64,000 bases of DNA from Archangium sp. (lineage in GTDB: Bacteria; Myxococcota; Myxococcia; Myxococcales; Myxococcaceae): NCBI GenBank assembly GCA_030695565.1, contig JAUYRZ010000085.1:62001-126000 (forward strand), written 5' to 3'. Shown in pieces: positions 48,897 through 54,977 of this stretch (positions within the stretch are counted from its first letter, which is position 1; each line of letters begins with the position of its first letter). The notes beneath the pieces were generated by a model, which saw only the letters and a list, made by a program, of their open reading frames with translations, ran no database searches and was not told where the DNA came from. A program made the translations under genes and the position numbers.

Positions 48897-49967
48897 GTGA
48901 GTCGACTTCTTCCAATCGCGCTGCTCCTGATCTCTGGCTGTGACCCGGTGGGGCGAGAGAACGGGCGCGGCTCGGCCGTTCCCGAGGTGGCGCCGCCGAT
49001 TCTGAGCCCGGTGGAGATCAAACCGCCCCGCATCGAACGGGCGCCGGTCGGCCGGGTCGATCTGATCGATCCGCCCCGGGTCGACTCGATTCAGGTCGAT
49101 GAGCTGCGGCAATCCGACGGCGTCGTCGACATTCTGTGGGTGGTCGACGATTCAGGCTCGATGACCAATGAGCGGCGCACGCTCGTGGGCAACTTCAACC
49201 GCTTCGTTCAAGAGCTGCTCGCCCTGCAGGTCGACTTTCAGATGGGGGTGACCTCGATCGTGGCCAGCGACGGAGGCCGGCTGCGCGGCGCCACGAAGAT
49301 CATCACCAACCTGACCACCGATCCCCGGCGGGTGTTCGAGTTGAACACCACCTTCCCCTCCTCGCGCTCGCGTTGGGAGCAGGGCCTGCGCATGACGCAG
49401 CTGGGGCTGTCTTCTCCGAACATCGATCCCGGTCAACCCAACGCGGGGTTCCTGCGGCCCAACGCGGCGTTGGCGATCATCGTGCTCACCAACGAAGACG
49501 ACTCGAGCTTCGGCACCACCGATCACTACGCGCGCGTGTTCAAGGCGCTCAAGGGCAAGGGCAACGAGAACCTGGTGAGCTTCTCGGTGATCGGCGGCAC
49601 CATCCCCAACGGGTGCGTGCCCCCCGGGGAGACCGGGCTCTACGGCAGCACCGCTGACCCGGCGATTCGGTATGCGGAGGTGGCCACCAAGACCGGCGGC
49701 ATCATCGGCAGCATCTGCGACGCGAGCTTCGAGCAGACCCTGGTGCGCATCGCGCAGGCCCTCAACACGCTCAAACGGGTCTTCCCGCTCACCCTGCCCC
49801 CGATCATCAACTCGATCACCGTGACCGTCGCGGGGGTCGCCGTTCGACAGGATCCGGTGAACGGGTGGCAGTACCGCACCGACACCAACTCCGTCGTCTT
49901 CCTGGGCAACTACGTGCCCCCGCCCGGTTCGACCGTGCGCCTTCAGTACGCCTACGCCCGCCCATGA
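48897..49967 (+). CDS. VWA-domain lipoprotein
   Basis: A 356-residue lipoprotein (start GTG; MSRLLPIALLLISGCDP). A Pro/Arg-rich segment leads to a von Willebrand A domain: DILWVVDDSGSM supplies the MIDAS DxSxS, with further metal-site residues in NLTTDPRR and VLTNEDDSS. The C-terminal ~90 residues are beta-rich. VWA domains bind protein ligands through Mg2+. The stop overlaps the start of the next lipoprotein (ATGA). Function unknown; both proteins should be on the same membrane face. Confidence 0.8.
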   Translation: MSRLLPIALLLISGCDPVGRENGRGSAVPEVAPPILSPVEIKPPRIERAPVGRVDLIDPPRVDSIQVDELRQSDGVVDILWVVDDSGSMTNERRTLVGNFNRFVQELLALQVDFQMGVTSIVASDGGRLRGATKIITNLTTDPRRVFELNTTFPSSRSRWEQGLRMTQLGLSSPNIDPGQPNAGFLRPNAALAIIVLTNEDDSSFGTTDHYARVFKALKGKGNENLVSFSVIGGTIPNGCVPPGETGLYGSTADPAIRYAEVATKTGGIIGSICDASFEQTLVRIAQALNTLKRVFPLTLPPIINSITVTVAGVAVRQDPVNGWQYRTDTNSVVFLGNYVPPPGSTVRLQYAYARP

Positions 49968-51328
49968 GATTCTGGATCTTCGCCCTGTTTCTGCTGGCCG
50001 GGTGCTCGCGGAGCGCGCTCAACCCCGACTGTCCCAATGGCTACACCCGGCCTGATGGCGGCGCGTGCGTGTGCCAGACCGACGAAGGCTGTCCCACCGG
50101 GTACTCGTGTGAAGAGGCGGTGTGCGTGTGCCGAAGCACGAACTGCTGCCCCAGCGGCTACGAGTACTCGGTTGATTCTGAAGCATGCGTGTGCCGCGCC
50201 TCGGAGTGTTGCCCGCGCGATCACCGCTGGCTGGCCGACGAACGCCGCTGCGTGTGCGACGACGAGAACTGCTGCCCCGGTGGTTACGAGTTCAACGACA
50301 CCACGCGCGCGTGCGAGTGCGCCGATGACGCGTGCTGCCCGGTCGGCTTCAGCTGGGACGCAGACAGGGGCCTGTGCGCCTGTGCTTCGGACAATTGCTG
50401 CCCGGTCGACTTCCGCTACGACGCGCTCACCGGCGATTGTGTCTGCGCGAAGACCGAGTGTTGCCCCGCCAACCACGAATACGATCCCGCGCTCGCCGCC
50501 TGCGTGTGCGTGGGCAATGCGTGCTGCCCGCCCGGCTTCCAGCGCGGCGCCGGCAACCGCTGCGTGTGCATCAACAACGCGAGCTGCCCTGCCAATCAGG
50601 TCTGCGACGCGGCTTCGGGTTCGTGCAAGTGCAGCAGCAACGCGGGCTGCCCCGCGAACAACTTCTGCAACGCGCTGGGCTACTGCCAGTCGTTCGCCTC
50701 GTGCACCTCGAACCTCGACTGCCCGGGCGGCACGTTCTGCGACATCACCACCACCCGCTGCATCCCCAACGGGCCGTGCACGCTCGATGAACACTGCGCG
50801 CTGAGCCAGGTCTGCAGCACGGCCACCCTGCAGTGCCGCGCCGGCTGCCGCGATGATGGCGACTGCACCCCGAAGAACTCGTGCGTGACGGGGCAGTGCC
50901 AGTTCTTCTGCCGCGACAACTCGTTCTGCGCGGTCAATCAGTTCTGTGATCGAACCAGCGGCACCTGCGCCACCCGGCCGGCCCGGCGTGATTGTGAGAG
51001 CTGCGTGGCGGGCATCGAGTGTGCGGCGACCATCTCGTGCCTCACCTTCGTGACCGAAGGGCAGATGGGCAGCTTCTGTGGCCACGACTGCCAGACCGAT
51101 GCGGATTGCCCGTCGGGGTTCGATTGCGGCGGGGTGATCTTCAGCTGCTCGAGCGGCGCGAGTTGTCCGACGGCGCCGGGTGGCGGCGCGGTCACCTGCA
51201 ATTCGTTCACGGTAGAGAACGAGACGGGGCCGCAGTTCTACTGCTCGGGCAGCAACGGGCTGCCGATTGAGTACAAAAAATCGTGCGCGCCGAGGTCAGG
51301 CTTCTGCCCCGCCAGCGCCGCGCCTTGA
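49964..51328 (+). CDS. Lipoprotein with ten Cys-rich tandem repeats
   Basis: A 454-residue lipoprotein (MRFWIFALFLLAGCSR). From residue 35 to ~239 there are ten tandem units of 19-21 residues with the pattern CxC-x5-CCP(x)2-(Y/F); six consecutive ones are exactly 21 residues. A further Cys-rich region continues to the C-terminus with at least 25 cysteines. No known domain was recognised; the spacing is unlike EGF or TNFR modules. ATG 49964 overlaps the VWA gene stop, so the two are coupled and probably act together outside the cell. Confidence 0.78.
   Translation: MRFWIFALFLLAGCSRSALNPDCPNGYTRPDGGACVCQTDEGCPTGYSCEEAVCVCRSTNCCPSGYEYSVDSEACVCRASECCPRDHRWLADERRCVCDDENCCPGGYEFNDTTRACECADDACCPVGFSWDADRGLCACASDNCCPVDFRYDALTGDCVCAKTECCPANHEYDPALAACVCVGNACCPPGFQRGAGNRCVCINNASCPANQVCDAASGSCKCSSNAGCPANNFCNALGYCQSFASCTSNLDCPGGTFCDITTTRCIPNGPCTLDEHCALSQVCSTATLQCRAGCRDDGDCTPKNSCVTGQCQFFCRDNSFCAVNQFCDRTSGTCATRPARRDCESCVAGIECAATISCLTFVTEGQMGSFCGHDCQTDADCPSGFDCGGVIFSCSSGASCPTAPGGGAVTCNSFTVENETGPQFYCSGSNGLPIEYKKSCAPRSGFCPASAAP
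50066..50680 (+). repeat. Coding tandem repeat of ~63 bases, ten units
   Basis: Encodes the CxC...CCP protein repeats. The DNA is strongly diverged between units and only the protein pattern is kept, so this is an old duplication and not a recently expanded satellite. Confidence 0.8.
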
Positions 51329-51362: not shown

Positions 51363-52187
51363 TCACTTCAGGCCCAACCCAATCCGGTACAACTCCTGGG
51401 CCGACCAACCCGATCTCTTTGCGAGATCGGTGGAAAGCCCCTTCAACCGCTCCCCCGCTGCGAGCGCCGCAGTCAAAGCGCGGCGCACCTCATCCTCTGA
51501 CCACCGGGTTTCCCCCGTCCGGCCCTCCACCAGCACCACCACCTCACCCAGCACCTCGCCCGCCCCATACTGCTCCGCGAGCTCGAGCAACGTGCCCCGG
51601 CCGAACTCCTCGTGCAGCTTGGTGAGTTCCCGCGCCACCACCGCCCGGCGCGGCCCCAACCACTCCGCCAACGACTCGAGCGTATCGACCAACCGGCGCG
51701 GCGATTCGTAGAGCACCAACGTCGCCGACAGCTGCGACACCTCGTCGATCATCGCCTTCGCTTCACTCACCTGCCGCGGCAGGAACCCCAGGAAGTGAAA
51801 CCGGCCCGTGGGCAACCCACCCGCCGAGAGCGCCGCCACGAACGCGGCAGGGCCCGGAATGGGAATGATGGTGACTCCGGCGGCCACGGCCTCGAGCACC
51901 AGCTTCTCGCCGGGGTCGCTGATGGCCGGCGTGCCTGCGTCGGTGACCAGGGCCACGTCGGCGCCCGCCAGCAGCCGCTCGAGGATCGCTCCGGCGCGTT
52001 GGCCTTCCGCGAAGGCGGGCAGGCTGACGGTGGGCGTGGCGATGCCGAACTTCTCCAGCAGGCCTCTCGTGTGCCTGGTGTCTTCGCAGGCGATGACTGA
52101 GACGGCTCGCAGCGTCTCGATCGCCCGCGGCGAGAGATCGTTCAGGTTGCCGATCGGGGTGGCGACGACGAAGAGACGGCCGGGCAT
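51363..52187 (-). CDS. rsmI: 16S rRNA (cytidine-1402-2'-O) methyltransferase RsmI
   Basis: A 274-residue tetrapyrrole-methylase-fold enzyme that 2'-O-methylates C1402 in the ribosomal P site. PIGNLNDLSPRAIETL, EDTRHTRGLL, TDAGTPAISDPG, PGPAAFVAALSAGGLP and YESPRRLV are all signature stretches. ATG 52187 is the standard start; the longer frame reaches into a repeat. It is downstream of yraN in the rplS operon order. Confidence 0.95.
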   Translation of the reverse strand: MPGRLFVVATPIGNLNDLSPRAIETLRAVSVIACEDTRHTRGLLEKFGIATPTVSLPAFAEGQRAGAILERLLAGADVALVTDAGTPAISDPGEKLVLEAVAAGVTIIPIPGPAAFVAALSAGGLPTGRFHFLGFLPRQVSEAKAMIDEVSQLSATLVLYESPRRLVDTLESLAEWLGPRRAVVARELTKLHEEFGRGTLLELAEQYGAGEVLGEVVVLVEGRTGETRWSEDEVRRALTAALAAGERLKGLSTDLAKRSGWSAQELYRIGLGLK

Positions 52188-52210
52188 GAAGTGGGGCGTA
52201 GCATTCTTTG

Positions 52211-52245
52211 CCCTCACCCCGACCCTCTCCCGAAGGGAGCGGGGG
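52211..52245 (+). repeat. Dispersed repeat, copy 7
   Basis: CCCTCACCCCGACCCTCTCC followed by C-gaa-GGGAGCGGGGGCC, in the gap between yraN and rsmI. It is the most complete example of the long left arm. Confidence 0.85.
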
Positions 52246-52250
52246 CCACG

Positions 52251-52619
52251 TCAACGACCCGCGTCGAAGGCGTCTTCGATGTGCTCGATGTGCCCTTCCC
52301 GGCCCTTGCCCACCACCGCGGCGACGTCGAAACGAATGACGCGCTCGAACAGCCGGTTGCGCTGGCAGTACTCGTACGCCGCCAGCACCACCTTTCGCTG
52401 CTTGGCGAAGTTCACGCTCATCGACGGGTCGCCGAAGCACGCAGTCGCCCGCATGCGCACCTCGACGAACGCGAGCACGTTGCCCTTCTCCGCCACCACA
52501 TCGAGCTCACCCCGCCGGCACAACACGTTGCGATCGCGGATCGTGTAGCCCGCACGCTCCAGGTGTTCGACGGTCAGCTGCTCGGCTTCATCCCCCGCGG
52601 CCCTCTTCTGCGTCGTCAT
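52251..52619 (-). CDS. yraN: YraN-family (UPF0102) nuclease-fold protein
   Basis: A 122-residue protein of the PD-(D/E)xK-like YraN family. GDEAEQLTVEHLERAGYTI and RRGELDVVAEKGNVLAFVEV are the conserved parts. The catalytic-like E-V-K is E-V-R here. The biological role of the family is unclear (DNA repair or recombination is proposed). It sits between a degenerate SMC-like gene and rsmI. Confidence 0.88.
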   Translation of the reverse strand: MTTQKRAAGDEAEQLTVEHLERAGYTIRDRNVLCRRGELDVVAEKGNVLAFVEVRMRATACFGDPSMSVNFAKQRKVVLAAYEYCQRNRLFERVIRFDVAAVVGKGREGHIEHIEDAFDAGR

Positions 52620-52652: not shown

Positions 52653-54560
52653 TCAGATCGGCGCGGGCGTGTCAGCCATGCTCGCATTCTGCCCAGACCC
52701 ACTGACATGCAGGACCTGGGTGAGCGAGCCGAGGTGCTTCACCATGCGCCCGAACAGGGGCTGCTTGGCCGCGTCGAGCACGGTGTTGAAGGTGTCTTCG
52801 ATCACCACCGGCAACTTGTGCTGGCCCGCCGCCTTCTCGATCAACGTCAGGCGCAGGGCCAGGTACATCAGATCGAGATCCTTGCCCGGCAGCTCGCGCG
52901 CAGAGATCGTTCGGCCCGGCGCCTCGAGCGTGGCGTGCCCGTCTTTGTCGATCGAGATGCCGTGGTAGCGGCGGTCGGTCAGCGCGGTGAGGTACTGCAC
53001 GGCGCGATCGTGGAGCACGCTCCAGAGCGACGGCACGTCGGTGGTGAACAGGTCGGTCGCCAGCATCATCAACGGCGCCGCGGGGTCGTCGAAGGTCTCG
53101 GTGGGGGTGGTGACCACCGGCGCGAAACCTTCACCCGACATCGAGGGCTTCGGCGCCACGGGAGCAGCAGCAGCAGCCGGCTCCTTCAAGCGGGCGATCT
53201 CGCGCTCGATGTCGCGCACGTCGCGCACGTAGCCGTCCGACATGCCCAGCAGCTCCTCGTTGCAAGCCTCCTGGCTGGCCTTGAGCTCCGCGCTGCGGGA
53301 GGCGAGCGAGGCGTACTCGGGGGTCGACTGCGCGTCGGCCCACTCCGCCTCGAGCTGGTTGACCTGCGTCTGCAGCCCGGCGCGTCGCTCCATCACCGCG
53401 AGGAACTCGTCGAGGGTCTCCGCCCCCACCTGCGCGAACGCCTTCTGCACCACCATGGTGGTCAGCGCGAAGTCGTCAGCCAGCTTCTTCGCGCGGCCCG
53501 TCAACACCTCGGCTTTGCCGCCGCTGCGCCCGGAGTGCTGCAGATCTTCGATGAACCGCAACGCCAGCAGCGCGGCGAAGGTGAAGGGCACCATCGAGCC
53601 CACCGCGAGGTACCGCAGGCCGCCTTCGAGAAACACGGCGCCGATCAGCAGCGCCAGACCCGCGGCGATCGCGCCCAGGAAGCGTTGATCCGACTGCAGG
53701 GGTGCCGGCGGCTCCGGCTGATTGTCGATGATCGCCCGCTGTTCTTCTTCGAGGCGGGCGAGCTGCTCCTCGTGGCGTTTGCGATCTTCGGGGTAGCGCT
53801 TGGCCCGTGCCACCACGTCTTCGGCCGCCGCGGGCGACTGCTCAGAAGACTTGCGCAGCTCGGCGCGCGCCGTCTCCAGCCGCTGCTTCAGCTCTTCCCA
53901 GCTCTTCATCTTGGATTCGATGGTGAAGAGCTCGGAGCTGACACCATCGAGCCGGAACTGCACTTCAGCCGCGCGTTTGGAGGTGACCAGCTCGGCCTCG
54001 AGCGACGCCAGCCGCGCCGGATCTTCAGCGACCGGCGCCGAGGGCGCGTCCATGTTCCAGCTGGCGGTCGGCAGGCGCGGGGCCGACTTCGAAGTCGCCG
54101 ATGCAGCCGCCGGCCGCGCGGGCCCCTTGGGACGGCGGGTGGGCAGCTGCGGCCCGGTGAGCGTGAAGAGCTGCTCCCAGGTGGAGCGCGCGGGGAAACC
54201 GGCACCGGCCCGCAACGATTGCCCCATCTCCAACGCGTCTTGCGAGACGACGTCGAACTGGTTGGTGGCTTTGTTGAGCTTGTGCAGCCCGCCGGCCCCG
54301 CCGAGATCTCGAACGATCCGCCAGACCGAGCCGTCATTGCCCTGGATCGAGAGACCAGCGCGGCCCGACTTCGCGCCAGGCGCGAGGAACGCGGAGTCGC
54401 CTCCGCGCCCATCGGGGAAAGCGAGCGCGACGATCAACCCCGACAACGGCGCCGGGAGATCAGACGGGCTTTGCAGGGCTGAATACCCCGGTTTGAGCGC
54501 GAGGCGGACCGAGGGAGACAACCCACGAACGCCCTGCGCCGCCAACTCGAGGAAAAGCAT
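52653..54560 (-). CDS. SMC/YhaN-like coiled-coil protein with degenerate ATPase head
   Basis: A 635-residue protein with the layout of the AAA/SMC-type YhaN group: N-terminal head piece (LFLELAAQGVRGLSPSVRLA through VALAFP), coiled coil (~165-270), two membrane segments (~285-330), second coiled coil (~350-450), and C-terminal head piece (ELPGKDLDLMYLALRLTLIE, LPVVIEDTFNTVLD, LGSLTQVLHVS). The Walker A loop, expected after LKPGYSAL, reads QSPSDLPAPLSG and lacks the GxxGxGKS pattern. The ABC-like LSxG signature is LPGK. It probably does not hydrolyse ATP alone. It follows rplS by 15 bases, where rnhB often sits in other genomes. Confidence 0.6.
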   Translation of the reverse strand: MLFLELAAQGVRGLSPSVRLALKPGYSALQSPSDLPAPLSGLIVALAFPDGRGGDSAFLAPGAKSGRAGLSIQGNDGSVWRIVRDLGGAGGLHKLNKATNQFDVVSQDALEMGQSLRAGAGFPARSTWEQLFTLTGPQLPTRRPKGPARPAAASATSKSAPRLPTASWNMDAPSAPVAEDPARLASLEAELVTSKRAAEVQFRLDGVSSELFTIESKMKSWEELKQRLETARAELRKSSEQSPAAAEDVVARAKRYPEDRKRHEEQLARLEEEQRAIIDNQPEPPAPLQSDQRFLGAIAAGLALLIGAVFLEGGLRYLAVGSMVPFTFAALLALRFIEDLQHSGRSGGKAEVLTGRAKKLADDFALTTMVVQKAFAQVGAETLDEFLAVMERRAGLQTQVNQLEAEWADAQSTPEYASLASRSAELKASQEACNEELLGMSDGYVRDVRDIEREIARLKEPAAAAAPVAPKPSMSGEGFAPVVTTPTETFDDPAAPLMMLATDLFTTDVPSLWSVLHDRAVQYLTALTDRRYHGISIDKDGHATLEAPGRTISARELPGKDLDLMYLALRLTLIEKAAGQHKLPVVIEDTFNTVLDAAKQPLFGRMVKHLGSLTQVLHVSGSGQNASMADTPAPI

Positions 54561-54575
54561 TCCCTTGAGAGTGGC

Positions 54576-54977
54576 TTACTTCGCGGCCGGAGTCGCGGCC
54601 TTCTTCTCAGCGCCTGCAGCCGGCACGTTCTCTTCGAGCGCGTCGAGACGGGCCGCCTTGCCGCGCAGACCGCGGAGGTAGAAGAGGCGACCACGGCGCA
54701 CGTCACCGCGGCCGAGCACTTCGATCGACTCGTAGCGGGGCGAGTGCAGGGGGAAGATGCGCTCGACACCAACGCCGAACGACATCTTGCGGACGGTGAA
54801 CGTGGCGTCGACGCTGCCGCGCGTCTTCCGGATGCAGACACCCTCAAAAGCCTGGGTGCGCTCCTTCTCGCCTTCCTTCACCTTCCACCAGACACGCACG
54901 GTGTCACCGGCGCGGAAATCGACCACTTCTTTGCGCGAGTGGAGCGAGTCCACGAACATGATGGCGGCGTTACGCAT
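54576..54977 (-). CDS. rplS: 50S ribosomal protein L19
   Basis: A 133-residue ribosomal protein at the 30S/50S bridge. [30 protein letters not shown] and [15 protein letters not shown] are diagnostic. An Ala/Lys-rich C-terminal tail extends past the usual end. rpsP-rimM-trmD, the common partners, are not adjacent; here it leads an operon with the SMC-like gene. Confidence 0.97.

Follow-up and report, generated by a model that had tools for sequence, protein, structure and literature searches.

The window analyzed here is a stretch of 64,000 nucleotides from Archangium sp. (contig JAUYRZ010000085.1, positions 62,001 to 126,000 of the forward strand). It carries, between the genes rplS and yraN, an ORF with an ATG start that encodes a protein of 635 amino acids and that we call gene X. 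According to the AlphaFold secondary structure and hydropathy, the product of gene X consists of a head half, a coil, a hydrophobic two-helix hairpin, a second coil, and a second head half. The features of the locus, in window coordinates, are as follows.

51363 to 52217, minus strand: rsmI (tetrapyrrole-methylase fold; NCBIfam names the M. xanthus homologue a 16S rRNA methyltransferase)
52251 to 52619, minus strand: yraN (UPF0102), directly downstream of gene X (Pfam PF02021, E 1.1e-22)
52653 to 54560 including the stop codon, minus strand: gene X, a predicted membrane-anchored Rad50/SMC-like pseudo-ATPase of 635 aa (ORF, orthologues, AlphaFold, Rad50 fold match)
52656 to 53093, minus strand: C-terminal head lobe of X, residues 490-635 (Rad50 profile match, alignment)
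53172 to 53540, minus strand: second coiled-coil arm, residues 341-463 (AlphaFold)
53541 to 53687, minus strand: two apical hydrophobic helices, residues ~292-340, a predicted membrane hairpin (AlphaFold, hydropathy, alignment)
53706 to 54020, minus strand: first coiled-coil arm, residues 181-285 (AlphaFold)
54126 to 54560, minus strand: N-terminal head lobe, residues 1-145, with the P-loop replaced at about residues 30-40 (AlphaFold pLDDT 93-98 for residues 1-140; N-lobe profile A4)
54438 to 54476, minus strand: site of the lost Walker A loop, residues 29-41, LQSPSDLPAPLSG (alignment with P-loop-bearing members of family f13)
54576 to 54977, minus strand: rplS (ribosomal protein L19), with its stop 15 bases upstream of gene X (Pfam PF01245, E 3.2e-42)

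The coordinates and motifs quoted in the initial annotation are correct: LPVVIEDTFNTVLD is present, and QSPSDLPAPLSG stands at the position expected for the P-loop. Its head-coil-membrane-coil-head plan is likewise borne out, the membrane part being a predicted hairpin (AlphaFold, hydropathy peaks). The C-lobe carries a degenerate signature, LPGKD (residues 557-561), and a Walker B-like segment, VVIEDTF (585-591). A purine-rich AAGGGA abuts the ATG of gene X (window 54558-54566, minus strand), closer than is usual for a ribosome-binding site, and it is possible that translation of X is coupled to that of rplS.

The gene order rplS-rnhB-yraN-rsmI is an ordinary one in bacteria, and the locus is generally conserved. 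Within the window's order, rplS adjoins X in 75 of 77 loci (some genomes being counted twice); it does so in 21 of 27 loci outside the order, several of the remaining ones being cut by contig ends. In M. xanthus, whose orthologue is L097, the order includes rpsP, rimM, trmD, rplS, X, yraN, and rsmI (rplS by BLAST). In most loci, yraN and/or rnhB lies directly downstream of X. The initial annotation had remarked that X occupies the place where rnhB is often found. Although X does lie between rplS and yraN, it is not a stand-in for rnhB: rnhB is found in none of the 77 order loci, but it directly follows X in 14 of the 27 outer-family loci, and the rnhB of the window's own genome, sought elsewhere as the annotation had proposed, is located on another contig (G000:C40:56126-56659). 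We therefore discarded the idea that X replaces rnhB. The loci with rnhB after X rather indicate that X is an old resident between rplS and rnhB, and rnhB most likely left the locus later. In the excerpt consulted of PMC7310880, rplS serves as a tree marker only. Elsewhere in the window, a long plus-strand ORF (49964-51328) begins like a lipoprotein (FALFLLAGC) and continues with numerous C-rich repeats of CCP type; it looks like a secreted or surface protein rich in cysteine.

We modeled X with AlphaFold as a single chain, using an input alignment of 42 proteins (that of the window plus 41 relatives). In the resulting model (mean pLDDT 89.4, pTM 0.53), the two end lobes form one Rad50-type two-lobe ABC head. 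Its best VIA match was Pyrococcus Rad50 (4ncj_A; Z 24.6, rmsd 2.7, 274 aligned), followed by SMC heads (Z ~20-21), and the top Foldseek matches were Mre11-Rad50 chains. In a search that did not use the model, a C-lobe profile alone matched Rad50 chains in the PDB (E 3.3e-10). The SMC-type head proposed initially is upheld as a head of SMC/Rad50 architecture. A profile of the N-lobe only had no PDB match up to E 1, as expected if the most telling motif of this lobe is gone; the evidence for its homology is therefore the fold together with the f13 orthologues described below. A Pfam search of X gave no confident family, the best being SMC_N (E 0.13). Weak Pfam/NCBIfam matches of order members (TIGR04211, NPV_P10, and others) that we judged to be coiled-coil matches were set aside.

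The label “SMC/YhaN-like” is supported in its first half. Bacillus YhaN combines a Rad50-like architecture with membrane helices halfway along the coil, and its general plan resembles that of X. However, the YhaN-type family AAA_27 (PF13514) had no match to X even at E 1, so specific kinship with YhaN stands as a lead. The window's genome has, at a PF13514 hit, a protein of 1066 aa (L171:1146-4343, minus strand, contig C33) that aligns weakly with X in both lobes but, unlike X, has an intact P-loop (GPNDLGKST), a signature-like LSVGTRD, and no strong hydrophobic hairpin. Rad50/SbcC of the Mre11-Rad50 system, with its two head lobes linked by an antiparallel coiled coil, is closest to X by fold and C-lobe sequence. 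Yet X has no Walker A, its signature and switch residues are degenerate, its coils are short, and it has no zinc hook CxxC (none in 635 aa), the apex being a hydrophobic hairpin instead. No Mre11 was found among the conserved neighbours identified at X loci. SMC proteins share the head fold and the head-coil-coil-head order; in contrast to them, X has no hinge domain (helices only between the coils in the model), a much shorter coil, the hydrophobic hairpin, and no P-loop.

The alignment and the model show a conserved two-helix hydrophobic hairpin at the distal tip of the coils, taking the place of a zinc hook or hinge. In the window protein, the hydrophobic stretches between the arms span residues ~292-309 and ~317-340, and the two 19-residue windows starting at 294 and 319 have mean hydropathies of 2.22 and 1.78. 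In each of the 50 order members listed, one or both of the two top-scoring hydropathy windows fall in the hairpin stretch, with the second-best window weak or elsewhere in some (e.g., L015, L021, and L037). A motif like RYLALLDIPAFG recurs in this stretch from the window's family to outer families, and the hairpin is also visible in aligned outer members. We infer that the hairpin is inserted in the inner membrane; the shortness of its helices (~18-21 residues) and the weak or displaced second window of some members speak against this.

Within the window's order, the ATP site was read in 78 distinct proteins, drawn from 60 searched relatives and 45 named loci (including Myxococcus, Corallococcus, Pyxidicoccus, Archangium, and Hyalangium) after exclusion of three defective or partial rows and of duplicates. 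None of the 78, the window protein included, has a Walker A motif GxxxxGK[ST] anywhere. The Walker B aspartate position (588) holds E in 51, D in 26, and G in 1, and the residue after it (589) is D in 62 and E in 8; the window protein has E-D at 588-589 and so does not have the combination of Walker B aspartate and catalytic acid. Some members keep a textbook Walker B without a Walker A, such as L037 (ILDDPFAGLD) and L042 (LLLDEETSGLD). The signature serine position (558), part of LPGKD in the window protein, holds P in 57 of the 78 and S in 8, and P140 is invariant in all of them. The motif DGRGGD is well conserved in the window's family; DGRG is missing from most other families of the order and from outer families.

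Outside the order, 28 genomes had matches, of which 27 were read. One family from elsewhere in Myxococcota, f13 (L140, L142, L143, L146, L147, L160, L161, L162, and L164), differs from the window's X in the ATP site: all nine members have a P-loop (e.g., GGSGSGKT or GGPGSGKT) and the Walker B aspartate, and a GxGK[ST] within the first 60 residues is present in 9/9 compared with 0/18 in the other outer families. They share with X the gene place, the hairpin, and the fold, and they likewise have no signature serine (absent in 9/9) and no histidine at the switch position. The model of one of them (L146) folds into the same head (Rad50 match at Z 27.4, rmsd 2.6, 280 aligned), in which the P-loop sits where expected, between strand and helix. 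At E 0.01, Pfam AAA_23 matches 9/9 and SMC_N 8/9 members, and PF13514 matches one of nine (E 0.0037). Together, the P-loop, the head model, and the AAA_23/SMC_N matches argue that the X family descends from a P-loop ATPase, and f13 probably preserves an earlier form of it that still binds nucleotide.

Walker A-bearing orthologues, which the initial annotation had named as refuting its reading and as a sign of local decay, therefore do exist. Local decay is nevertheless not borne out, since the loss spans the whole order as well as the other outer families read. Judging from these alignments, the loss of Walker A predates the diversification of the window's order. In an unrooted tree of 51 rows built with the P-loop columns removed, f13 forms one side of a branch with 100/100 support, and a single Walker A change is needed. 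Against taxonomy, family f10 (L132 and L133), assigned by its labels to the window's class, is placed together with f13 of another class (97/89), a grouping that reflects either transfer or tree error. Forcing the window's class together costs 27 log units and is not clearly rejected (p-AU 0.051). With an unrooted tree and this p-AU value, one loss of Walker A and several losses would both be compatible. The initial reading of X as a pseudo-ATPase is supported in part: the order-wide absence of Walker A and the constrained heads favor it, and for the window protein itself, pseudo-ATPase would be the best reading.

The gene is widespread and its head is under constraint. Of the 60 relatives searched, 57 have an orthologue of X. 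Across Myxococcota, the N-lobe profile matched 164 of 193 sampled genomes, with one match in the window's own genome. Among six close members (15 pairs, by the simple NG86 method), dN/dS was 0.045-0.218 for the N-lobe, which holds the dead P-loop site, 0.100-0.398 for the C-lobe, and 0.337-0.830 for the two coils, single values being rough because the regions are short. Purifying selection on the head lobes means that X is not a decaying gene; going by these substitution patterns, the head is retained for some use. The 57 orthologues and the constrained heads rule out a local pseudogene or frameshift. Plasmid and phage searches with X gave no match, which together with the fixed synteny speaks against a mobile gene. 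As far as its distribution tells, X is a vertically inherited, chromosomal Myxococcota protein found phylum-wide. All three small genomes of genus g20 (G024, G135, and G160; 2.1-2.7 Mb), which belongs to the window's family, are without an X match, whereas nearly all other members of that family have X. This points to loss with genome reduction and shows that the gene can be lost.

The reading we favor, to which we give a probability of roughly 0.6, is that X serves as a Rad50-like scaffold tethered to the membrane and independent of ATP, with a Rad50/SMC-type ABC ATPase as its ancestor: probably a former motor turned fixed scaffold, without the ATP-gripping loop in most members. The hairpin would lie in the inner membrane and the head in the cytoplasm, and each arm of ~105 residues (~15 nm as one helix) would hold the head at a set distance from the membrane. 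Because P-loop, signature serine, and switch histidine are all missing, the heads presumably do not cycle with ATP and would instead provide a permanent docking scaffold, which is most likely dimeric or oligomeric. The partner tethered to the membrane could be nucleoid DNA or a DNA/RNA-processing or ribosome-linked complex. The net charge of the N-lobe is +5 to +7 in eight sampled members of family f1 and -3 to +5 in four from other families; by analogy, Rad50 kinship and the positive N-lobe suggest, but only suggest, DNA as a ligand. The operon company offers a weak clue to translation or RNA processing, weak because the locus is generally conserved in bacteria. Counting against the scaffold are the canonical Walker B of some order members, such as L037, the absence of X from genus g20, and the short hairpin helices; ATP may also be bound without a Walker A.

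Among the alternatives, the one that fares best, though we consider it unlikely, is that X is the dead half of an asymmetric ATPase and pairs with a live SMC/Rad50-type partner, whose ATP site it completes or regulates. ABC pseudo-ATPases paired with active subunits are known, and live partners are available, since three or more ORFs of the window's own genome combine an intact P-loop with a PF13514 hit. However, the serine that X would lend to such a partner is mostly proline in the order, and the loss of this serine disfavors the pairing; moreover, the conserved neighbours at X loci, where part of the ORFs were identified, include no P-loop ATPases. Ranking below this, and improbable in our view, is a nuclease-linked relic, in which X would act in Mre11's place as a Rad50-like regulator of its neighbours YraN or RNase HII. 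YraN is a predicted nuclease-fold protein, and one or both genes immediately follow X in most loci. Yet rnhB is missing from all 77 order loci while X remains, and the adjacency is weak evidence given that this gene order is an ordinary bacterial one. Least probable is unusual nucleotide binding, with other residues (e.g., DGRG after the first helix) offsetting the loss of Walker A: the mostly retained acid at 589 and the DGRGGD of the window's family speak for it, but the aspartate position drifts to E and DGRG is missing from most other families of the order and from the outer families.

Returning to the ATP-independent scaffold, it is tempting to speculate on how it arose, although the following scenario is tentative and more doubtful than the scaffold itself. 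The ATP machinery would have been lost stepwise, signature and switch first, then Walker A, with Walker B drifting last, and f13 would represent a nucleotide-binding intermediate. The outcome would be a core Myxococcota tether that, independently of ATP, keeps the nucleoid, or a complex that processes nucleic acids, at a defined spacing from the inner membrane.

A full-text literature search, mostly at the level of listings, returned no paper on an X-type protein, and queries for YhaN and SbcEF yielded nothing of use. Heads of the Rad50/SMC type are well known; as far as the literature searched goes, a phylum-wide member that appears to have no Walker A and to carry a hydrophobic hairpin at its apex is new. 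Rad50/SMC proteins are usually viewed as ATP-driven machines. If the scaffold reading is true, a well-kept head without an ATP site and with a hairpin at the apex would imply that the head is under selection for a role of its own that needs no ATP. As the P-loop is retained by f13 at this very locus, the loss of Walker A is directly testable through living relatives, and M. xanthus, with its orthologue L097, is a tractable host.
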